Part shown: one piece after another, positions 42,001 through 53,929 of the stretch
Position numbering within the stretch: the stretch's first letter is position 1
How the letters are laid out: each line of letters opens with the position of its first letter
IMG/VR virus record: IMGVR_UViG_3300025093_000013
Coordinates: 48,474 to 112,473 of that record
Direction: 5' to 3' (one strand)
Length of the DNA stretch: 64,000 nucleotides
Source of the DNA: a virus
The notes under the pieces: model-generated
What the model was told of the DNA's origin: nothing
Database searches by the model: none
Seen by the model: only the letters and a program-made list of their open reading frames with translations
Program-made: the position numbers and the translations under genes

Positions 42001-42734
42001 CCGTCGGTGGTACGAGCCCTTTCTTCAGCGGCCTTTCCGTTCTAGACCAATACGGGGCTGGCATGAATGTATACACGACATTCACAGGTCTAACAGGTAT
42101 CGGAGTTTCGGCAGGAGGAACAGGACAATACCTACCTGAAGCTGTAAGGTACTATCAAGCAAGGTCAGGTCAAACAGGATTCCCTGATGGCCTTCCCTAC
42201 TCAACTTCTATCTCTGCAATACAATCAGGTCCTTACTTCTTTGGAAGGACTTCCCATGAAAATACAGGACCCTTTAGATTATACTTAGAGCCTGATCCCT
42301 TTGCACATAAATTACGGTATACAAACTGCTCTAGCCTCAACGATAACAGATTGTATCAAGTGTATTCTCAAGGCTATCATGCATCGGGGTCAATGTCGGC
42401 TACTGATTTTGATTTATCAACCTGGGGTGGTAGAACAGGGTTTTTATCTAGATTCGGAGGGGCTTACAGGTCACTTCCTACTGGCGGAGCTTTGTATGTA
42501 GGCGTAGAAGATATGGTAAGGACTGAGAACTATAATATTAGGTTAGACGAATCTTCTGCACATGCATTCGCAAACTCAAAACATTGCTCTAATGAATTTG
42601 CAGGAAGACCGAAGATGGTTGATATCTATAGAGGAACACTTGGACAGGGAGGCGCTTTGAATGAAAATGCTAATACCGATTCGGGAGCAGGGTTCAAATC
42701 ACCTCACACATTCGATCTTAGGAGAAACTACTGA
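39096..42734 (+). CDS. Parallel beta-helix virion protein (1212 aa)
   Basis: The N-terminus carries FYNWEEDNLPLYDVEER (residues 33-49), an attachment motif shared with the next gene. From about residue 280 to 680 the protein shows the periodic short strands and Asn/Ser/Gly turns of a right-handed parallel beta-helix (MSIKNCNDIVIENCGVTRSK; GGLYVSNSDVTLN; GVYLQNSRLVGGGNT; AGIKLVNSVMDLDCDVDVY). Such tail spikes often bind or cleave surface polysaccharide; catalytic residues cannot be identified, so enzymatic activity is open. The C-terminal 500 residues are Gly, Tyr and Asn-rich and probably form the trimer tip. It overlaps the next gene by one base. Confidence 0.65.
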   Translation: MAFIPADLYTASAGVELYNYWNPFVTKHDASSFYNWEEDNLPLYDVEERTDFLWERLGFPASSIPGMALCVSSSSPTGNNNVFTSLSAAVDALPEVIRMPTLIEVAVSGDLGTLELKNIKCVGDGKLEIINRVFSPITRGQATVTAIGSTATRKAITSVIAGDMFDTIAATSALSVSQNTSDLFGNGSIAYNGASFVIQSNESGGGDFRPDQLSVNFHAGGTQTFLDNSTSTVLVGDIASDPANSDINDSASSLDYSKTGGGATLQRTEVGTFVVGANAVGMFTNNTLRSVKVYNCDGPIYIRGFAVQGATGLGPTPTYYEDYGMSIKNCNDIVIENCGVTRSKVGGLYVSNSDVTLNRRFFSGRNYDTNRASTTNYGVNAVNSTITLSSDSYSNGLDAVYVAYQHDYGVYLQNSRLVGGGNTVSTARASLKACYNAEAGIKLVNSVMDLDCDVDVYSNKIGLEGVDSEITLDGFVCQYNDYKGVVADNCKIAYGKEAVNTATALTSTFGADGIAYNYRTAYHGNGVHLELNNSRYIPYLTETLDTSCPFTLFAHNIGIDALSVKPAINLNNSKASLVHSRISSVAEGGTHKPEFALSPTVPAYGAAISGRNNSEVELLGSYRLATVITGPSAITRRDAGIFVDKNSSCRVSGPFFIGQYGVGMYAAGGSEITFCPHTEDSQYGFASTSFDLTGQVGNHTSVEVHAYGPCMVVDEDSTINMRDLGDAFSMYPLANQSDDYPAGYHGDVSAYTHAGGMFFMPNPNTATVTGEVLHTNNSAKITYTSEPTANFAFQSNQTLGNGKYNRYLATVANLGADQEQVSKGGVCVQALGNSVVNVNNVSFNAVSAIGDGAYYDALNSPNLCNNLRIWSFGGGATLNCNHVAVSGTYPSQAGYHGPKAIYYNEDDPVGYVPSALHTSAFGHYPYGYKYSLSTLSGVDFRTNSSPSAGADPITGKLRNENFNHLEASTVGGTSPFFSGLSVLDQYGAGMNVYTTFTGLTGIGVSAGGTGQYLPEAVRYYQARSGQTGFPDGLPYSTSISAIQSGPYFFGRTSHENTGPFRLYLEPDPFAHKLRYTNCSSLNDNRLYQVYSQGYHASGSMSATDFDLSTWGGRTGFLSRFGGAYRSLPTGGALYVGVEDMVRTENYNIRLDESSAHAFANSKHCSNEFAGRPKMVDIYRGTLGQGGALNENANTDSGAGFKSPHTFDLRRNY

Positions 42735-45211
42735 TGCCTAATCACTACGCAGAAAACCAAATCGACCAGAACAAAAAGCAATGGATCGAGAGTGCTTACA
42801 AGTTTACACAGCCTGTAAGATACTTTAAGAACAACGACCCTTACCATTGGGAGATTGATAACATCCCAATCAAGCAGCTAGAGGAGAATGTCCTTTGGCT
42901 CAAGGATCAAGTGGAGGCAGGTTCTCAAGTATCTGGTATAACTCGTAGTGATCTCGCTGAACTAAAGCCTGTTGCCACTGGATCCTCTAGAACTGTAAGA
43001 GTTCAAAAAGGTCGATTTACTGCTAGGATTAACGATGCATATGGGAAGGGCATCCAAACCCTTATAAAAACTGCTAATGCAACTGTAGATCCAAACGCCC
43101 CTTCTGACAGGAAGTTTAAGTTCAATCTTCCAACGAACATTCTAAAGCAAATCGCGGGTGATGTTGTAGGAGAAGCACTTTACTTCAACGGTCTTTACGA
43201 GCATTTACAACATCATCAAGTAAACCCAAGCCAAGGAAACCTTTCTTGGACTGCTGCTGCTTTGACCACCATAGCAAGCACACCAAAGAACAAGCTCGCA
43301 GTTTGGAGACAAGGCCAAACTATGTCGAACCAAGTTGAAGGTTTGGCCGAGCAAGCAGTAGCTTTCACAAGAAGATGGGGTGGTGCAATCAGAACTTCAA
43401 TCGTCAATGTAAAGGATGATATTGAGATTCAAGTTCCTGCATTCTCAGATACTGATTACTCTAACAACACGGGTTATAGCCCTGCGATGAGAGCGGATCT
43501 TCTTTTCGTCTACGCCCATCCAATCGATGCTGATTCTACTACGATTGCCCTTCCTGATGGAGAAGGCCCTACAACTATCACTGAGCCCAGACTCGGACTT
43601 CTAAAAGGTGCAGGCGTTGTATCTCTAAAAGGTTTTGGCGAGTACACTGGTTACGATAGCACTGATGCCAATGACGCTGGGTTCTTTGACAGCACTCTTT
43701 TCACAGCCAACCAAGAAAATAGTAACGCATTCTTTAGGGAGACAGACGCTGTTTCAGAGGAGGGACACTTCCAAACAGTATCACCTCTTGCTGATCTAAC
43801 TGTAGAGCAAGGAGCTTTCGCTGATGTTTCCGTTAGCTTCCCATCACCTGATGATGTGATGAACCTTACTCCTCTTTTCCAAGAGGGTCTTGAGAATAGC
43901 TTCGCTCTTGTTGGACAATCAATTCTTCCTATTGCTTATGTCATAGTTAGAAAAGGCAAGACTGTTATTGAAGATTCTGATATCATTGATATCCGTCCTT
44001 TCTTCAGAACAGCCGAGCTTTCTTACAATGAGCGTGCTGGTGTTGCTGCTGCCAACCCACCTCTTTCTTTTGCCAACCCTGCTGTTGGTAAGACTGAGCT
44101 TAACTCCACAATGGTAAAGGCTGTAACTCAGCTAAAGACTTATGTTGATAGCGCAGTCGGTGGTATTGATACTGGCACTGGTGGTAGCACTGGTGGTGGA
44201 GGTTCAAGATTCATCACTAAAGGTGCTATCTTAGGAGGCACTAAATTTGGTGTTGAAGGTGCCTTACTAAGTTTAGCAGGGGCTAATGACGACTCTACCA
44301 TTGGTAATGAACAGGAGGCAATATCCTATCTTCAAAATAAGCATGGACTTATAGGTCTTCCCGAACTTCCTCGATTGCCTGGTTGGGACTTAGGAGGATG
44401 GACAGCTAATTTAAATGATACCACCGACTTAGGATCTTTAAGAAATGATAGAATCAACTGCGCTATTAAGCTGAACAATGGTTCATTCCAAGACTTCACT
44501 GGTAGTGAAATAACCCAAAGTGTTGCTGAATCCCTTTATGATAGAATAGATAACAACAATTTCAGACCGATATCAGATGGAGTTGACGAATTTTTAGGGG
44601 GAACTGAAATAATTTATTATCTTAGAAAAAGGTTAAAGGTTACACTACCTTTAAATGTCATTGATTATGATGTCAATGCTGTTTTAAGAAATTGTGTCCC
44701 CTCTAGCGGTTCTGGTGGAACTCGCAATAGGTACTCTGGGATTGCTATTGAAAAGCATGGAATAGTTGGTAATGAGGCTGAGTTTACTATTTATGTTGCT
44801 TTTACTCCTAACGCTGCTACTGAGTTTTTCAGTACATTTCCAGGTACAGTAGGTGTTCATAGAGATCAAGTTTTAAATGATAGCTCTTTTGGCCAAAGAG
44901 CTTTCTGGGCTCCTATGAACAGCAAGTCTACGGTTGCCCAAAGAGGCAGAGATGTTTTCTCCGCATTCTCAGTTTTTACTGAGTATTACACGCAAGAGTT
45001 TAGAAATGTTAGTACGGGATCAAATTTCAAGGCTAACAATTCTAGCGATGCCGTTAATCTCAACTTCTACCAACCATCTTGGTCTGCATTAGTTCCCCTT
45101 TTAGTTACATACCCAACTGTAGAGTTTACTGTCACGGGTCACACTCAAGTTATGGGTCAGAACTATATATTCGACACTCAAACCACAGGTGGACAACCAA
45201 TCATAACATGA
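42734..45211 (+). CDS. Baseplate/fibre protein sharing the WExDNxP anchor (825 aa)
   Basis: Residues 36-50 read DPYHWEIDNIPIKQL, the same anchor type as in the preceding beta-helix gene. The following 400 residues look like a compact virion protein (ISGITRSDLAELKPV-type turn, then VRVQKGRFTARINDAYGKG and later PIAYVIVRKGKTVIEDSDII with IRPFFR). At about residue 475-490 there is a Gly/Thr hinge (GIDTGTGGSTGGGGS), after which codon use becomes more AT-rich and a second beta-rich part follows. The hinge and change of composition suggest a domain joined later. The role is probably connecting a fibre to the baseplate. Confidence 0.55.
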   Translation: MPNHYAENQIDQNKKQWIESAYKFTQPVRYFKNNDPYHWEIDNIPIKQLEENVLWLKDQVEAGSQVSGITRSDLAELKPVATGSSRTVRVQKGRFTARINDAYGKGIQTLIKTANATVDPNAPSDRKFKFNLPTNILKQIAGDVVGEALYFNGLYEHLQHHQVNPSQGNLSWTAAALTTIASTPKNKLAVWRQGQTMSNQVEGLAEQAVAFTRRWGGAIRTSIVNVKDDIEIQVPAFSDTDYSNNTGYSPAMRADLLFVYAHPIDADSTTIALPDGEGPTTITEPRLGLLKGAGVVSLKGFGEYTGYDSTDANDAGFFDSTLFTANQENSNAFFRETDAVSEEGHFQTVSPLADLTVEQGAFADVSVSFPSPDDVMNLTPLFQEGLENSFALVGQSILPIAYVIVRKGKTVIEDSDIIDIRPFFRTAELSYNERAGVAAANPPLSFANPAVGKTELNSTMVKAVTQLKTYVDSAVGGIDTGTGGSTGGGGSRFITKGAILGGTKFGVEGALLSLAGANDDSTIGNEQEAISYLQNKHGLIGLPELPRLPGWDLGGWTANLNDTTDLGSLRNDRINCAIKLNNGSFQDFTGSEITQSVAESLYDRIDNNNFRPISDGVDEFLGGTEIIYYLRKRLKVTLPLNVIDYDVNAVLRNCVPSSGSGGTRNRYSGIAIEKHGIVGNEAEFTIYVAFTPNAATEFFSTFPGTVGVHRDQVLNDSSFGQRAFWAPMNSKSTVAQRGRDVFSAFSVFTEYYTQEFRNVSTGSNFKANNSSDAVNLNFYQPSWSALVPLLVTYPTVEFTVTGHTQVMGQNYIFDTQTTGGQPIIT

Positions 45212-45212
45212 T

Positions 45213-48200
45213 ATGGTATCGGTATTTCAAGACTGCTTTAGAAGAATATTCTCTTACCAGGGGACAGGACCAGACGCGCCTGATCCTGGGGCAGGAACTG
45301 ACCCTGATGACTGCATAGATAATGATCCTACATGTTGCGCTCAGAATCCAAACGATCCTGACTGCGACGATGATACTGGTGGTGATGATCCTTGTTTAGA
45401 TGTTGTAAGTCTATACGGTTGTGGTGATGAGAGACCTTGTGCTGACACAGGTTGTTGTGAGGGAAATGTCCCAATAATTCAGAATATCACCAGAGGACAA
45501 CTCAACGCTCAGTATGGAATACCCTGTGATGCATCCTTAGAGGGTTGTGTTGATATTGGAGGGCAGAAATACCACCTAGATGCTTGCAACGAATCCTGTT
45601 GCCCTAGCAAGCCTTGTGGGTTTATTCAGTGTGCAGCATCTCAAGATGGTTGCGACCAAACTGATGCAGATGGTTGCTGTGAAGATTATCCGCCTCCTTT
45701 CCACATAGCCCAAGATGAAGTATGTGCAGAGTTTGAGGGGGCGGCTGAACAATACTTTGGAAGGGAGCTTTACTTAAGTGTAGAGCAGTGTGTTGCTGAT
45801 GGATGTATTAGTGACGAAACCTGTCAATATTGGCAATGTACAGCTTTAGATCAATCAGAGAATCTAACGGAATGTACCATAGTAAATCCTACTTTAGTTG
45901 ATCTTGGTGTAACTGATTGCGAGGACGCCCCTGATGAAATACAGTACAACGGTAGTCCTGCCTATAAAAGTAAAGATGATTGCAATGCAACATATCCTTG
46001 TTGCCCTATGCCCGTCTACTACCAATGTGACACTGAGTCTCAATCAACTAAGTGCGGGACATGTAATCAGTATACACAGCCAGGATCTTGTGATCTTGTA
46101 ATTCGTCCCGATATATTTGCTGATCAAGCTAGTTGTGATGCAGAGTGTCCAGGCACAACAGAAGTATACATATGTAACAATCCAGAACAAGGTTTCTGTG
46201 ATACTGTTAGTGATTTCTGTACTGCTGATGATCCTTTAGGTAATGGAACTAATTACTTCCTAGAGTCAGGAGCTTGTAATGCTACATGTTGCGAACCTGC
46301 TACTTATTGGTACTGCCCTGTAGGTATTGAAGGAGGGCAGTGTCAAAGCTATGTCGATGATGATTGTATCATAGACTCAGGAAATGCAGGTCCTAACGGA
46401 GAGAGGGTCTTTAAGACAAAACAGGCTTGCGAAAAAAGCCAACAAACTTATTGTTGCGAAGTAGAGCCCTCGAAAGACAACTACACAAATATAAATTGTG
46501 AATTTAATGATGGTAATTGTGTAACTACAGGTGAATGTGCTACTCCTGATAATGTAGATGTTGTATTTACTGACCTTGTAGAATGCTCACAATCAGTTTT
46601 GGACTGTCAAGATTGTTATGATGAACCTGTAGGACAATCTCTCACTGAAGTAATAGCTGCTAGGCTACAGTTCGCTTACGATGGCGGTAATAGCATTGAG
46701 ACTTACTACTGCCCAGGAGAGACCACAAGAACCCTTAGCATATCATCAAGAAATGCACTAGGTCCTAATTTATCGGATGATCCTTCTTACAGTAATTTAG
46801 AAGATTTCCAACTACTTATAAATGGAAATGTAATAGAGACAGAGGTTGTAGGCATTGATCTAACTTGGACATACGAGATAACTTTAACCTCTGGGCCTTT
46901 TACTTTGAACTATGAGTTTAAGGATCAGTGTGGGACTGTAGTGGCTGCCATTCCAGTTAACTATACTCCAGTTTCTTGTCTAGACTCGTTAGGATCTTTT
47001 CAAGAGTGTTTAAGTCTCAATTCCACCCCAGACCATCCTTTTACATATCCTTGTGCCACTGATCCTTGCGACAGCCCTTTCTCTAGTGATTTCCCAGAGT
47101 GTGATACTGGCGGTGGAGGTGGAGGATCTGGTCCTATACAAGGACAAGGCACTCCAAGGGATCCTCTTAAGGATACTGACTCAGCCGCCCCAGGCATTCT
47201 TAACAGTCCAGGGGTGAACTACCTCAGGGAGATGAACAGGGTTATTAAGACTCCTAAAATCCTTGATGTCTTAGGTAACGATGAGTTTGTAAGAGCCCAG
47301 AGTGCGTTCACGCCCATGTACAACGATAAGCATCTAACCATCTTCTCCGATCAAGTACATGCTTCTATTTGGGCTGTGATGAACATTGATACTGAGCCTG
47401 AAGCCACAGAGAGGGCGTTTGATGATGTGTCTCTTAATTACATTTACAGGAGCCTCAATGATAATCTAAAAAAACGAATAGATTTACTTGAGGATTATGA
47501 CGGTAAGCCTTTGAGACCTAAGATTCTTAGAAGAATTAGGATATTACTATTTGAGGGCAGACTTGATGAGTTTGATGAGCAGGGTCTTTTCAGTATGAAT
47601 ACTGTTCACGATAAGACCTCAAGATCAAACAATATATCCAATGAGAACAACCTTGTAGATCTTGTAAACAGAAAAGCCAAGCCTCTCAACCCTGATGTTT
47701 ATGGTGGGTTCAATAAAGAGAGGATGAAGATTTGGAAGACAGTGGCTACGGATCTAGAAAAAGCTATCGCTTATGTTGATACAGACTCAGTTCTTAGGTT
47801 CATAGACATTAAGCAAGACGATAGTTACGAGATCTTAGACTCTAGTGGGGATGCTACTACAAAGTATATTAATGAAGGAGACTTCATTACATACTACAAA
47901 ACTGACGGGTCTAGAGGATTCCTCGACCTTGATACCTTAATTGAGCAAGCGGTTGTATTTGATTTTGAGGATTTGAGAAAAGCATTTGGTATCGTAAACG
48001 AAGATTATGCTACGGTGCTTTCTGTTTCTAGTGATGAGAATTCGTTCGTAGAGGAAGAATACTCTCTAAGCGATGCGAGACAGGATTTCTACTTCTTTAA
48101 ACTAGAGGTTAGCACACTTGAAGATGTATCTAGGACCAACCCCCTGGTAAGGATATCAAAAGCAAACTATAAGTTGGTTACTGATGCCGATGAGATCAAC

Positions 48201-49025
48201 GAGTGGATTGAGTACAAGCCTTGGCCCTACATGCATTTCAATATGGAGGCCAGTGATCCTTTCTTCGACCACATGTTAGATACGAGTAATATGACTGCTG
48301 AGTTCAAGGACATCAGCTTTGATAAGATTCAAGGATCAACAGATGATGTCCCAGTAATACCCAGAAGAATCCCTTGGCACATCGTTCTTATCCCAACTGA
48401 CAGGACAAGGTTCTTAATTGGATCTGGTAAGTCTAAGCTAACTGGCTATGGAAGTAGAAAAGCCGTGTTCCGACTATCTCCTGATAGAACCCAAACTTCA
48501 CAACGATGGGATCCTGAAATATTTAATGAGAAGGGTACAGATTTCTTCGGAGGTGTCGATCCTAGACAAGAATCAAAAAGTATCAAGGTAGAATACGATA
48601 GCTCAAAGCTTAAATCTGTAAGGAAATCTTACAAGAATGGTTCTGAAAAGCTTCCTAGAAAGCCTAGCGCAGCAAGACAACTATTCAAAGCAATCAGAGA
48701 CGCCAAGGCTGATGATAATAACTTTATCGATGAGGCTAAGACGAGAGTTGAATGGGGGTCAGTATTCAAGAACCTAACTCCAAACGAGCGCAAAACCCTC
48801 TACAGCGATATCGAGGACTATGATAAGAAAAGAGATCAGATAGCAACAAACACTTTTGCAACTAGCGAAACGGTTAGGGAACGCTTTGTACAAATAACCG
48901 AAGTATTTGATAAGGGCCTGAACAATGTTGATGATTACGACCCACCCCCAGTCAAGAAAAGAGAACGGGCTGTGAAAATTGAGGAGCCTGAAGGTGGCGC
49001 TGAAACACCCGAAATATTACCATGA
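45213..49025 (+). CDS. Virion protein with cysteine-rich N-terminal half (1270 aa)
   Basis: About 61 cysteines lie in the first 632 residues and none in the remaining 638, separated by a Gly-rich hinge at about 632-640. The Cys half is built from loose repeats of about 45-60 residues: an aromatic-C start (YWYCPVGIEGGQC), a Gly/Phe turn (RVFKTKQAC) and a CC pair. It is also Asp-rich. The C-terminal half is a charged alpha/beta body with VNYLREMNRVIKTPKILDV and IPWHIVLIPTDRTRFLIG and looks like a conserved baseplate component. The next gene encodes the PAAR tip and overlaps by four bases. Function unknown; disulfide- or metal-stabilised surface module is inferred. Confidence 0.6.
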   Translation: MVSVFQDCFRRIFSYQGTGPDAPDPGAGTDPDDCIDNDPTCCAQNPNDPDCDDDTGGDDPCLDVVSLYGCGDERPCADTGCCEGNVPIIQNITRGQLNAQYGIPCDASLEGCVDIGGQKYHLDACNESCCPSKPCGFIQCAASQDGCDQTDADGCCEDYPPPFHIAQDEVCAEFEGAAEQYFGRELYLSVEQCVADGCISDETCQYWQCTALDQSENLTECTIVNPTLVDLGVTDCEDAPDEIQYNGSPAYKSKDDCNATYPCCPMPVYYQCDTESQSTKCGTCNQYTQPGSCDLVIRPDIFADQASCDAECPGTTEVYICNNPEQGFCDTVSDFCTADDPLGNGTNYFLESGACNATCCEPATYWYCPVGIEGGQCQSYVDDDCIIDSGNAGPNGERVFKTKQACEKSQQTYCCEVEPSKDNYTNINCEFNDGNCVTTGECATPDNVDVVFTDLVECSQSVLDCQDCYDEPVGQSLTEVIAARLQFAYDGGNSIETYYCPGETTRTLSISSRNALGPNLSDDPSYSNLEDFQLLINGNVIETEVVGIDLTWTYEITLTSGPFTLNYEFKDQCGTVVAAIPVNYTPVSCLDSLGSFQECLSLNSTPDHPFTYPCATDPCDSPFSSDFPECDTGGGGGGSGPIQGQGTPRDPLKDTDSAAPGILNSPGVNYLREMNRVIKTPKILDVLGNDEFVRAQSAFTPMYNDKHLTIFSDQVHASIWAVMNIDTEPEATERAFDDVSLNYIYRSLNDNLKKRIDLLEDYDGKPLRPKILRRIRILLFEGRLDEFDEQGLFSMNTVHDKTSRSNNISNENNLVDLVNRKAKPLNPDVYGGFNKERMKIWKTVATDLEKAIAYVDTDSVLRFIDIKQDDSYEILDSSGDATTKYINEGDFITYYKTDGSRGFLDLDTLIEQAVVFDFEDLRKAFGIVNEDYATVLSVSSDENSFVEEEYSLSDARQDFYFFKLEVSTLEDVSRTNPLVRISKANYKLVTDADEINEWIEYKPWPYMHFNMEASDPFFDHMLDTSNMTAEFKDISFDKIQGSTDDVPVIPRRIPWHIVLIPTDRTRFLIGSGKSKLTGYGSRKAVFRLSPDRTQTSQRWDPEIFNEKGTDFFGGVDPRQESKSIKVEYDSSKLKSVRKSYKNGSEKLPRKPSAARQLFKAIRDAKADDNNFIDEAKTRVEWGSVFKNLTPNERKTLYSDIEDYDKKRDQIATNTFATSETVRERFVQITEVFDKGLNNVDDYDPPPVKKRERAVKIEEPEGGAETPEILP

Positions 49026-49381: not shown

Positions 49382-49879
49382 ATGAACAGAGATCAATTAA
49401 GAGAAGCCGTACTCGGCACCTCAGCCTGGAAGAAGGCTGGTTTACTTACAGAGTCCGTTGCTCCCGTTCAGGAGCAAGAGGTCATCGAAGAAGCTAAGGC
49501 CGAGGAGACTGCTCCTGAGGCTCACACTTGCCCTCTCTGCGAGTCCACCCTTGAGGGTGAGCTTTCCGACGAGGTTCTTCTTGAGCACGCCGAGCAAATG
49601 CTAGGCGTCTTCCAAGAGGCAGAGCAACTTCTCGCTGAGGCCGAAGAGGCCGAGGAAGGCGAGGTTGTTGAAGAAGAGGAGGAGGCCGAAGAGGTCGATC
49701 TTCTTGAGGGTCTTAACGATGATCAAATCGAAGCTATCGTTGAATTCGTTGAGGGTTTGAGAACGGATGAGAAATTCGATCTAAAAACACAGAACCAAGC
49801 TGGGAAAAACGACGAACGACTCGTAGCAGCAGGGAAAAGATCTAAGTACGCCCCTAAAGGCTCTAAGTTAAATCCTTGA
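49382..49879 (+). CDS. Acidic prohead core protein (gene 67 position)
   Basis: The 165-residue protein is extremely acidic in the middle (long Glu/Ala/Val blocks at about 75-110), with a CPLCES Cys pair near 51-56 and a basic C-terminus (RSKYAPKGSKLNP). It is the first gene of the head block, where T4 carries gene 67, an acidic core protein needed for prohead shape and cut to small peptides by gp21. A cleavage-type site L-L-T-E/S lies at residues 21-25. Strong ribosome-binding site CAGGAG. Codons are the GAG/CTT/CGT type of abundant proteins. The match is by position and composition, not by clear sequence similarity. Confidence 0.6.
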   Translation: MNRDQLREAVLGTSAWKKAGLLTESVAPVQEQEVIEEAKAEETAPEAHTCPLCESTLEGELSDEVLLEHAEQMLGVFQEAEQLLAEAEEAEEGEVVEEEEEAEEVDLLEGLNDDQIEAIVEFVEGLRTDEKFDLKTQNQAGKNDERLVAAGKRSKYAPKGSKLNP

Positions 49880-49896: not shown

Positions 49897-50313
49897 ATGG
49901 CTTCTCTTAAAGAAACAGGTATGGGGATTGGCGATTTTGCTCAAGCTTTGCTTAAGCAAGAGAAGGATAATCCTCAGCCTGTTTCACACAAAGCTCCCGT
50001 GAGGGGCAATGTGCCCGATATAGAGAATGTTCAAGTTCTTCAAGAAGATGTTAACGATGTTCTTGCTAATTCCTTCGGAGTTAGGCGAGATCCTGTACCT
50101 CAGGTCAACCTTCAAGAAGAAAGGAAGAAGCAGATTAAGGAGCAGATTCAAGTTAAGATTAACGAACTGAAGGAGCTTCTTAACGAGCTAGGTGTTACTA
50201 CTGGGACTACGACTGTAGGGAGCCTTGGCGCTCCTAACTACGCTGGAGGAAAAACTTATGAGCCTAATAGATCTGGTAAGAGGAAAAGAGCAGTCGTTAA
50301 ACGAAAAGTCTGA
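49897..50313 (+). CDS. Prohead protein sharing a decapeptide with the major capsid protein (138 aa)
   Basis: No family is recognised. Residues 1-70 are polar; 71-98 form an amphipathic helix (QIKEQIQVKINELKELL) ending in L-N-E, a gp21-type cleavage site. Next comes TGTTTVGSLG at 102-111, identical to residues 55-64 of the major capsid protein. The last 27 residues are strongly basic (SGKRKRAVVKRKV). A prohead protease cut after LNE97 would release a basic 41-residue peptide that could bind DNA. The gene lies between the acidic core gene and a second, very basic gene that starts inside its 3' end. Confidence 0.6.
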   Translation: MASLKETGMGIGDFAQALLKQEKDNPQPVSHKAPVRGNVPDIENVQVLQEDVNDVLANSFGVRRDPVPQVNLQEERKKQIKEQIQVKINELKELLNELGVTTGTTTVGSLGAPNYAGGKTYEPNRSGKRKRAVVKRKV

Positions 50314-50695
50314 ACGATACCCTAGTGGTAGAGGTAGTTACAAAAGAAAGAATGTAACTAGCTCTCGTAAGAGTAAAGTTCCAATTTACGACACCATCAA
50401 GGCTGCTCTAAAGAAGACTAGCCCTGGTACTATTTTCTCTACAAAAGGCTCATATAGAATGTATGTCACAACCTCTGGGGGTTGGGGCAAGAGTAAACAA
50501 CAAAGAGTTTCTGGTAGAACAGCTAAAGGCTTTACACCAGGGAGTTCAACCCCAGGTTCTAGTTGGAAAAGCATTAAAAGCCATGCTGCTAGAACAAGAG
50601 TAAAGCATGGTGGCGCTACTGCTGGTAGGTTGAAGGCAGCGGCTCGAAGAAAAAAGGATCAACCAAAGAAGTACACAGCTAAAAGGAAAAAGTGA
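50258..50695 (+). CDS. Very basic prohead/DNA-binding protein (gene 68 position)
   Basis: GGAGG lies seven bases before ATG 50258, which is better supported than an upstream TTG in the same frame. The 145-residue product (T4 gp68: 141 aa) is Lys/Arg/Ser-rich throughout (SGRGSYKRKNV; HAARTRVKHGGATAGRLKAAARRKKD) with a short folded middle (TIFSTKGSYRMYVTTSGGWG). It overlaps the preceding gene by 56 bases in another frame and its stop overlaps the protease start. Position and size fit a basic core protein like gp68; a DNA-binding or core-condensing role is inferred from charge. Confidence 0.55.
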   Translation: MSLIDLVRGKEQSLNEKSERYPSGRGSYKRKNVTSSRKSKVPIYDTIKAALKKTSPGTIFSTKGSYRMYVTTSGGWGKSKQQRVSGRTAKGFTPGSSTPGSSWKSIKSHAARTRVKHGGATAGRLKAAARRKKDQPKKYTAKRKK

Positions 50696-51708
50696 TGTTA
50701 ATAGAAGATGTATTCATTATCGAAAACTTACAGGTCCTCAACGAAGGCAAAGGTGGTCCTATGCGAGTTCGTGGCGTTTTCCAGCGTGCAGACGAGGAGA
50801 ACAACAACAAGCGCATCTACCCCAAGGCTCTCCTTGAGCGTGAGATCAAGAAGCTAGACGAGGCCATGAGAGGTCGCCGTCTTATGGGCGAGCTTGATCA
50901 CCCTCAGCACGACAGCGTTAAGCTTTCAAATGTTTCTCACCTTATCACTAAGCTTGAAGCTAAGGGTAACGAGATTATCGGTGAGGCTGAGATCCTAGAC
51001 ACTCCCATGGGTAAGGTCGCTAAGGCACTTATCGAGGGCGGTGTTCAGGTTGGTATCTCTTCACGCGGTATGGGCACTCTCTCCGAGGGTCAGGACGGTA
51101 AGCGTTATGTCAACGAAGACTTCCGCCTTATCACCTGGGACCTAGTTGCTGATCCTTCTACCCGTGGTGCTTTCCCTTCTCTTGCTGAGTCCCGTCAAAG
51201 CGTACTCGTAGAAGAGATCATGAACGATGTTCTTCCTCGCGTGACCAAGGAGAAGGTTTTCGCTACTCTTCTTACTGAGAGCCTTAACGAGGCCAAGATG
51301 AAGAAGGCTAAGAAAGCTCCTGCCAAGAAAGGTGGCAAGAAGTTCCCTGACCTCAGTGGTGATGGTAAGGTTACCTTCAAGGACATTCTTATGGGCAGAG
51401 GTGTGATCGGTAAGGGCGAGAGAAAAGATGAAATGCAAAGCCCAGCCGCCATCCAAGCCAACAAAGAAAGAATGCGTAGAAAGATGGCAGGCATGGGACC
51501 CTCTGCTAGAAGAGCATACAAAGCTAGACATGGCATTGCGGACTCCACTCTCTTCTCTCGCGTTGGCTCTGTTCTTTCAGAGATGAACGCCCCTGAGAAG
51601 GCAAAACGAGTTATGAAGCTTTCTCCTAAGAGTCAGGCTGAACTTCATAGAAGAAAGATGGAAAGAGAAGGAAAGGATATTTACGGTAAGCCTAAGAAAA
51701 AATCATAA
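50695..51708 (+). CDS. 21: Prohead core protease (gp21-like) with C-terminal extension
   Basis: The ATG at 50695 overlaps the upstream stop (TGATG). The first 175 residues are the serine protease that matures T4-type proheads: MGELDHP with catalytic H69, and VQVGISSRGMG with the nucleophile at S122 or S123, followed by LITWDLVADPSTRGAF. T4 gp21 is 212 aa; here about 125 extra residues follow. They include a Lys/Ala-rich linker, a calcium-loop-like DLSGDGKVTFKD at 219-230, and a basic helical tail ending GKPKKKS. The enzyme would cut scaffold, core and capsid N-termini after L/I-x-E. Confidence 0.92.
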   Translation: MLIEDVFIIENLQVLNEGKGGPMRVRGVFQRADEENNNKRIYPKALLEREIKKLDEAMRGRRLMGELDHPQHDSVKLSNVSHLITKLEAKGNEIIGEAEILDTPMGKVAKALIEGGVQVGISSRGMGTLSEGQDGKRYVNEDFRLITWDLVADPSTRGAFPSLAESRQSVLVEEIMNDVLPRVTKEKVFATLLTESLNEAKMKKAKKAPAKKGGKKFPDLSGDGKVTFKDILMGRGVIGKGERKDEMQSPAAIQANKERMRRKMAGMGPSARRAYKARHGIADSTLFSRVGSVLSEMNAPEKAKRVMKLSPKSQAELHRRKMEREGKDIYGKPKKKS

Positions 51709-51721
51709 AAAACGAGCACAC

Positions 51722-51729
51722 CTATAATA
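51722..51729 (+). promoter_or_regulatory. CTATAATA promoter candidate for scaffold/capsid genes
   Basis: CTATAATAACTG lies in the 54-base gap after the protease gene. Predicted start is near 51735, giving a leader of about 28 bases with TTGGAG before ATG 51763, the best-formed promoter-leader pair among these elements. It fits strong extra expression of scaffold and capsid. Confidence 0.5.
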
Positions 51730-51762
51730 ACTGTATAGATAACAATAGATTGGAGTACAATC

Positions 51763-52386
51763 ATGGATAAAAAGAAAATAGAAGACATTGCTCAGTTACT
51801 TCCTGAGGGCATCACCGAGGAAACGATCACTGAAATCGCTGGTGTTATGCAGGGTTTAATTGAGGAAAGAGTACAGGAGGAAGTTAGCGATCTTACCGAC
51901 AAGGTTTTCGCTTACCTATCCATGAAGCGTCAGCAGATTCAGGAAGCCGCCCTTGAGGAGCTTCATGAGTCTAACGATGTTTACCGTGACGCACAAAGAT
52001 TCCGTGAGCTTATGGGCTTCATGGCCGTCGAGTTCCGCCCTGAGCATGTTGATGCTGAGAGTGAGAAGAGACTTGCCGAGGCATCTGAGCTTGTCGAGGA
52101 CAACGAAGTCCTCGCCCGTGAGCTTTCCGAGTCACTCAAAGAGCAAGAGCGCCTTGCTAAGACAATCCAACTGCTAGAGTCTAAGGTCTCAAAGCGTGAG
52201 TCAGAAGTTGCTTCTCTCACCGAGAGCGTTAACGCTTTAGCAGAGGAAAAAGAGACTATGTTGTTCGAGTCTACCGAGCAAGCTGTAGTCGTTACTAACA
52301 ATGTAGACGAAGAGGTTGAGGATCAAAAACTGGAAAGTATCGGAAATGAGTTCTTAACCGAAGAAATGCTCAAGCTTATGCGATGA
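51763..52386 (+). CDS. 22: Prohead scaffold core protein (gp22-like)
   Basis: The 207-residue protein is acidic, Glu/Leu/Ser-rich and almost fully coiled coil (QEAALEELHESNDVYRDAQR; then a long LxxxL series between 95 and 170). It lies between protease and major capsid, exactly as T4 gene 22 (269 aa), the main scaffold that is digested during maturation. Several L/I-x-E sites occur along it. The central segment FRELMGFMAVEFRPEHVD is typical of gp22-like scaffolds in marine T4-like phages. TTGGAG precedes the ATG. Confidence 0.85.
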   Translation: MDKKKIEDIAQLLPEGITEETITEIAGVMQGLIEERVQEEVSDLTDKVFAYLSMKRQQIQEAALEELHESNDVYRDAQRFRELMGFMAVEFRPEHVDAESEKRLAEASELVEDNEVLARELSESLKEQERLAKTIQLLESKVSKRESEVASLTESVNALAEEKETMLFESTEQAVVVTNNVDEEVEDQKLESIGNEFLTEEMLKLMR

Positions 52387-52411
52387 GCAATAACTAAAAG
52401 GATTTGTAGTT

Positions 52412-53929
52412 ATGGATTTAATGGAAATGGGTGCCAGTGACGACCTCGTACAGAAGTGGGGTCCTGCGCTAGACGGCATCGAAAATGATTATACTAAGAG
52501 AGTAACTGCACAACTTCTAGAAAACCAACTTAAGAGTGCCCAGCAAGAAAGCATCGATGAAGCTGCTGTTGGAACTGGTACTACTACCGTTGGTAGCCTC
52601 GGCACTTTCCAGAAGTTTGCTTTCCCTCTCGTTCGTCGGGTCTTCCCCGAACTAATCGCTAACCAACTCGTTAGCGTTCAGCCTATGAGCGGTCCCGTCT
52701 CACAGGTCTTCTACCTTGGTGCAGCTAGAGCTTACGGTTCTGACCGTGAGACTATCTACAGCAAGTACAACCTTACCTACAGAGGTCTAACCACTGGTAA
52801 GGTTCAGCCCACTACCACAGGTATTGATGTTGATGCTGGAACCTCCCCCACCTCTCAGGAACTAGGTGGTTCTGCTCTTTCAGAAGCCTTTGCTGACGGT
52901 AGCAACATGGCTTCCGCTATTGCTAATTGGCCTACTACTGCCCTTGCTCAAGGTTGGTCAGTCTCTGCTGGTGAGAAGCTTACTGGCACTGCAATTCCTG
53001 AAGTTACCCTTCAGATCGAGCAGCAGCCTGTTGTCGCTCGTACCAAGAAGATGCGTGCTCTCTGGACCCTTGAGGCTTCTCAGGACCTTAGAGCTTACCA
53101 CAACCTAGATCTTGAGCGCGAGCTTACTGATCTACTTGGTAAGGAGATTCGCCTTGAGGTTGACCGTGAGCTTATCGAGAACCTTCGTGGTCTTGCTTAC
53201 GACATCAGTGGCACCGCTGGTAGCCTCTTCAAGAAAGAGTACCTTGATCAAGCCAGCAACCAAGGTGGCATGGGTAACTTTACCAGCCCAGGCACTGCTG
53301 TCGATTCACAGTTTGGTGATTTCCTTTTCAAAGGAACTGACGGCACTGATCTTGGTCTTCCTACTTCCACCGCTGGATCCAACAAGAATGTTATCCTTGT
53401 AGACTTCGAGTCAAGTGCTCTTAACTTCGCTCCTCGTCATGTCGGTGATGTGTACGCAAACCTTCTTGCTGCCATCAACTTCGCCTCACAGGATATCTTC
53501 AAGACCACTCAGCGTGGTGCTGGTAACTGGCTTCTTTGCTCCCCCGTTGTTGCAACAATCCTTGAGACTGCTGCAAAGCTAACTGGTGGCATCGAGGCTG
53601 CTGATGGCCCAACTAACTTCGGTCCTGGCACTATCCAGTTCCGTGGTAAGTTCATGGGTCGTTACGACCTCTTCGTTGATCCTCTTTACCCAGAGGGCGA
53701 GATCATGGTCGGTTACAAGGGTGGTAACCCCATGGACGGTGGCTTCGTGTATGCTCCATACATCCCCTTCCAGGCTCTACCCACCATCACCGATCCTGAG
53801 AGCTTCCAGCCCAGAAAGGGCATCCTTACCCGTTACGGTAAGGCTGCTGTTGCACCAGCTTCCAGATTCTACAGAATCATTAGACTCGTAGGCGCTGATA
53901 GCTTGTTCAACCCCTTCCTTGAGAAGTGA
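52412..53929 (+). CDS. 23: Major capsid protein (gp23-like)
   Basis: The 505-residue protein (T4 gp23: 521) forms the capsid lattice. The N-terminal propeptide ends at S-I-D-E50/A51, a gp21-type site; then TGTTTVGSLG (55-64) leads to the HK97-fold landmark FAFPLVRRVFPELIANQLVSV. Later family segments are MRALWTLEASQDLRAYHNL, ELTDLLGKEIRLEVDRELI, GNWLLCSPVVATILE and VDPLYPEGEIMVGYKG. Codon use is strongly biased to CTT, CGT, GAG and GGT, as expected for the most abundant virion protein. AAAGGA precedes the ATG and a strong terminator follows. Confidence 0.97.
   Translation: MDLMEMGASDDLVQKWGPALDGIENDYTKRVTAQLLENQLKSAQQESIDEAAVGTGTTTVGSLGTFQKFAFPLVRRVFPELIANQLVSVQPMSGPVSQVFYLGAARAYGSDRETIYSKYNLTYRGLTTGKVQPTTTGIDVDAGTSPTSQELGGSALSEAFADGSNMASAIANWPTTALAQGWSVSAGEKLTGTAIPEVTLQIEQQPVVARTKKMRALWTLEASQDLRAYHNLDLERELTDLLGKEIRLEVDRELIENLRGLAYDISGTAGSLFKKEYLDQASNQGGMGNFTSPGTAVDSQFGDFLFKGTDGTDLGLPTSTAGSNKNVILVDFESSALNFAPRHVGDVYANLLAAINFASQDIFKTTQRGAGNWLLCSPVVATILETAAKLTGGIEAADGPTNFGPGTIQFRGKFMGRYDLFVDPLYPEGEIMVGYKGGNPMDGGFVYAPYIPFQALPTITDPESFQPRKGILTRYGKAAVAPASRFYRIIRLVGADSLFNPFLEK

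Follow-up and report, generated by a model that had tools for sequence, protein, structure and literature searches.

The prohead operon analysed here, which belongs to a family of uncultured T4-like bacterial viruses, raises the question of why a major capsid protein (MCP) and a 138-residue neighbour, here called SP, carry the same ten residues just behind a predicted protease site. The window, a 64,000-nucleotide stretch of a 112,473-bp IMG/VR virus record, encodes TGTTTVGSLG twice: at positions 50200-50229 in SP (residues 102-111) and at 52574-52603 in the MCP (residues 55-64). Upstream of these copies lie LNE97 in SP (residues 95-97, 50179..50187), a predicted prohead protease site, and IDE50 in the MCP (residues 48-50, 52553..52561), the predicted maturation cleavage site. 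These features and all genes of the operon are on the plus strand. An earlier note had reported the identical decapeptide after L/I-x-E sites; its coordinates and both sites were confirmed, and the note understated the match. Among the 50 non-overlapping ORFs of the window (20,749 amino acids), TGTTTVGSLG is the sole peptide of at least eight residues common to two ORFs, and some common 8-mer appeared in 6 of 200 trials in which each protein was shuffled. The back-translated GTTTVG pattern has exactly two sites in the whole record, those in SP and the MCP, and the record holds a single gp23-family gene. Six of the ten codons differ between the copies, every time at the third position, which indicates that the peptide and not the DNA is held in common, as the note had also proposed. 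Beyond this virus and another assembly of it (L001/L012) the exact decapeptide pair was not found, whereas a common SP/MCP junction is present in most relatives.

The gene order in the window is acidic CPLC protein, SP, basic protein, Peptidase_S77 protease, scaffold-like protein and gp23-type MCP, to be compared with 20-67-68-21-22-23 in T4. The assignment of the MCP (52412..53929; PF07068, E=1.2e-78; phrog_138) to the gp23 family is solid: the Pfam score is 265.6 bits against a curated cut-off of 24.4, and T4 gp23 chains and structures are the top matches in both PDB sequence and fold searches. The protease (50692..51708) is of the gp21 type (PF03420, E=2.5e-26; phrog_207, E=4e-53). The gp22-like scaffold (51763..52386) was assigned from its position between protease and MCP and its coiled-coil-like composition; a profile search gave no significant family match. 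The 165-residue acidic protein with the CPLC motif (49382..49879) occupies the position of T4 gp67 according to synteny. Between SP and the protease lies a gene for a basic protein with a leader ending in LNE (50258..50695; listed ORF start 50225), which is devoid of the T-T-x-G-x-[LI]-G motif.

SP itself (49897..50313) is a putative prohead core protein that can be divided into a helical, acidic head (residues 1-97) and a disordered, basic tail (residues 98-138). In the AlphaFold2 model a long helix spanning residues 72-97 stops at E97, and the tail is unstructured and of low confidence. Protein scans of IMG/VR yielded related MCP loci with identities as low as about 50%. Wherever 4.3 kb or more of sequence preceded the MCP, SP was present (72 of 72 loci, a redundant set), and among the IMG/VR relatives it invariably lies within the prohead operon (51 distinct junction pairs). 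All 40 SPs align at the Glu of the proposed site, and their P3 residue, two positions before it, is L, I, V or M throughout. The head is mostly acidic (median net charge -5.5), and the tail after the Glu is always basic, with charges from +4 to +19 (median +8; also +8 in the window), where the most C-terminal part is APNYAGGKTYEPNRSGKRKRAVVKRKV (50230..50310). Pairwise dN/dS values of 0.18-0.44 indicate a real gene under constraint. In the MCP, the Glu of the predicted site is found in 49 of 53 aligned sequences.

The junction has the same layout in both proteins: [LIV]-x-E, then a spacer whose length varies, and T-T-x-G-x-[LI]-G. The spacer is nearly absent from both proteins in the deepest clade (L184, L190), with LEE^ATTVGNLG and IQE^ATTVGNLG, while in the clade of the window both contain one, IDE^AAVGTGTTTVGSLG in the MCP and LNE^LGVTTGTTTVGSLG in SP. 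The ATTVGN form occurs in both proteins of, for example, L138, L184 and L190. Other variants are shared in the same manner. The YGPG variant of L009 reads YGPGTTTVGSIG in both partners, and across partners we found TTTQSMG and TTTQSIG in the TTTQS variant (L158), STGVGSLG and MTGVGSIG in the TGVGS variant (L214), and STTVGHLG and ATTVGHIG in the TTVGH variant (L230). Past the final G the sequences diverge, to GTFQKF in the MCP and often GVNxAG in SP. The MCP motif continues directly into the near-invariant segment GTFQKFAFPLVRR, the counterpart of the N-arm of T4, which belongs to the lattice. In L101, L112, L114 and L120 a clear SP copy is absent, yet the MCP site is kept; in several SPs of the L101/L112/L120 group the resemblance is lost.

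To quantify the correspondence, junctions of the 51 distinct pairs were compared. The mean alignment score was 27.9 within genomes versus 20.5 with permuted partners, and none of 50,000 permutations reached the observed value. Junction lengths in SP and MCP were correlated (Spearman 0.77), and so were junction distances after correction for how far the MCPs diverge outside the junction (partial Mantel r 0.67, p 3e-4). In a set of ten representatives from the window's clade, one per subclade, p was 5e-5, and 0.02 after removal of the spacer; clade-restricted permutation was weak in two small clades (p 0.10 and 0.07). The relatedness of the pairs makes them non-independent, so that there may have been some five to seven separate co-changes. 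For the final test, SP sites were located by a downstream-charge rule, with ten boundaries set by hand from an earlier alignment; this rule replaced automatic detection in a large MAFFT alignment, which had picked a Glu upstream of the SP site. Of all the [LIVM]-x-E sites in a neighbourhood, the one in SP matched the MCP junction best in 30 of 35 cases. The earlier note had named independent variation of the motif in relatives as evidence that would count against it, and the two copies covary instead. Their joint evolution suggests that both plug into one site of the shell.

We consider it about an even chance that SP is a far-T4 prohead core protein in which the protease junction and the N-terminus created by cleavage imitate those of the MCP. 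From the sequences, synteny, aligned junction, covariation, charge and predicted disorder, we infer how cleavage, docking and tail function may be connected. SP would be built into the prohead core, probably through its acidic helical head. The gp21-type protease would cut it after L-x-E97, as it would cut the MCP after I-x-E50, and the released C-terminal fragment (41 residues in this virus) would begin with the T-T-x-G-x-L-G element of the mature MCP. This element could bind the site in the MCP lattice that receives the MCP arm, and would thereby keep the K/R-rich tail at the shell, turned towards DNA or core. The two ligands would change together because the receiving site differs between lineages; for a second ligand that tracks changes in the MCP arm, the simplest account is that both fit one receiving site. 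Of the options offered by the note, a new N-terminal arm or a lattice contact fits best, while a docking signal for the protease is weakened by the [LIVM]-x-E sites discussed below. It is conceivable, at somewhat less than even odds, that this T4-type lineage has a dedicated MCP-arm mimic, released by the protease, basic-tailed and coevolving with the lattice, that tethers or paces DNA or core during maturation.

In gp23*, the mature capsid protein of T4, the cleavage Glu is immediately followed by the N-fist (residues 66-91) and then by the N-arm. Both are disordered inside the prohead; upon expansion they shift outward and touch adjacent subunits (PMC9958956, PMC7136217). Our alignment puts the MCP motif in the region of the N-fist and the start of the N-arm. 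Since these elements end up outside the T4 shell, a DNA-facing SP tail would require either threading or an internal site occupied before expansion. In the AlphaFold2 model of the MCP, pLDDT is below 50 at residues 46-72, which span the motif, and the model is too weak for placement in a groove.

The main rival, which we disfavour and consider unlikely, is a shared protease cleft: the motif would be an extended P'-side recognition element for substrates that are cut precisely and kept, with scaffold proteins having a bare L-x-E. The motif indeed lies just past the predicted scissile Glu in SP and MCP, its spacer covaries, and a protease cleft that changed with the lineage would make both substrates change together. 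On the other hand, the motif is missing from the remaining [LIVM]-x-E sites of the head neighbourhoods, including those in the leaders of basic internal-type proteins, which should also need precise cutting. A generic protease motif was rejected on the same grounds. The distance from Glu to core, which ranges from 0 to about 10 residues, would also be awkward for a cleft, and the cleavage motifs published for T4 and giant phages are defined by residues up to the Glu (PMC5694885), which counts against recognition on the P' side.

Less probable still, both peptides might bind a third partner in the core in place of the MCP lattice, for instance the scaffold or a decoration protein not yet described. 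Covariation itself reveals only a common partner or constraint, and before cleavage both junctions would probably be situated at the boundary of shell and core. However, the MCP motif runs into GTFQKFAFPLVRR, the counterpart of a lattice element, and no decoration gene was identified. We judge it very improbable that the likeness is without function and goes back to gene conversion, or to a recent partial duplication that carried the MCP 5' region into SP. The peptides within a genome are very alike, but their codons differ at third positions, in L009, L138 and L158 as well as in the window, and the match recurs in lineages at about 50-60% MCP identity while leaving out the flanking GTF/GVN residues. 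Profile comparison gave unconvincing homology past the junction; the reading of SP as a diverged MCP fragment or paralogue was rejected at an hhalign probability of 17-38%, with a convincing alignment at the junction alone. Coincidence between Thr/Gly-rich linkers following two unrelated L-x-E tripeptides can practically be dismissed: the peptide is of such composition and no confident structure is predicted for either segment, but its uniqueness in the window and the covariation over 51 pairs contradict chance.

The closest counterpart of the SP arrangement in T4 is gp68, which occupies the same operon slot after the gp67-like gene and upstream of gp21, is of similar size, and also has an L-x-E head followed by a long basic tail. 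It differs in lacking any copy of the gp23 arm, and in the window one additional basic gene separates SP from the protease. Membership of SP in the gp68 family is not demonstrable from the sequences: hmmsearch of an SP profile against T4 proteins gave a best E of 0.43, for a protein other than gp68, and SP as a recognisable gp68 homologue was rejected after profile searches. T4 gp68 is reportedly degraded to peptides and not essential (PMC9958956).

The mature N-termini of T4 gp23 and gp24, like the SP element, are segments immediately after the protease Glu, although these are capsid proteins and SP has no match to a capsid fold. In gp24 (L172:24-1307), the mature start after LRE is STTTNSNSIG, close to the TTTQSMG variant, which suggests that T4-type shell proteins have long possessed the element as such. 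The internal proteins and Alt of T4 resemble the model for SP in being prohead proteins that are cut at L/I-x-E and whose product is retained. Their short common leader is N-terminal and removed (PMC5694885), whereas the common element of SP follows the cut and would be retained.

Pfam and PHROGs contained no significant match to SP, three SPs searched by tblastn gave no hit among 50,697 phage records, and a single scan across bacterial and archaeal genomes returned no relative. With identical scoring, no mimic was seen in the MCP neighbourhoods of T4, Munch, C48C1, P-RSM6, S-RIM32 and LR756511; a score of 38 between T4 gp23 and a gp21 segment (self score 139) was judged a length effect. Copying of the element into a core protein was undescribed in the literature searched, which mostly excluded subscription papers. 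Core-to-shell contacts in T4-type phages are hard to see because maturation destroys the core proteins. A naturally covarying ligand pair points to a common binding site from sequence alone, and suggests a way in which an internal protein may be addressed to the shell. The signature of L-x-E, T-T-x-G-x-L-G and a basic tail can be used to find such proteins in uncultured viruses.

Some further features of the locus were observed. Upstream of the operon, at 42734-49025, there are two large ORFs of 825 and 1270 amino acids without a significant PHROG match, the longer being Cys-rich at its N-terminus; no portal gene was identified. The CPLC motif of the 49382-49879 protein is retained in the positional relatives seen, and the protein gave a Pfam hit to the Rad50 zinc-hook (E=8.5e-4) that is below the cut-off; in a gp67-like core protein, CPLC could be a zinc-mediated dimer contact. 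The leader of the basic protein (50225-50695) ends in SLNE and resembles the T4 capsid targeting sequence. In L045, L051 and L055, extra basic genes precede the protease and have near-identical leaders of the MNYIQRIHDLLVEAQ type. The protease (50692-51708) has a long Lys-rich C-terminal extension downstream of LTESLNE, which is possibly a fused internal protein, and among relatives its length ranges from 201 to 500 amino acids.
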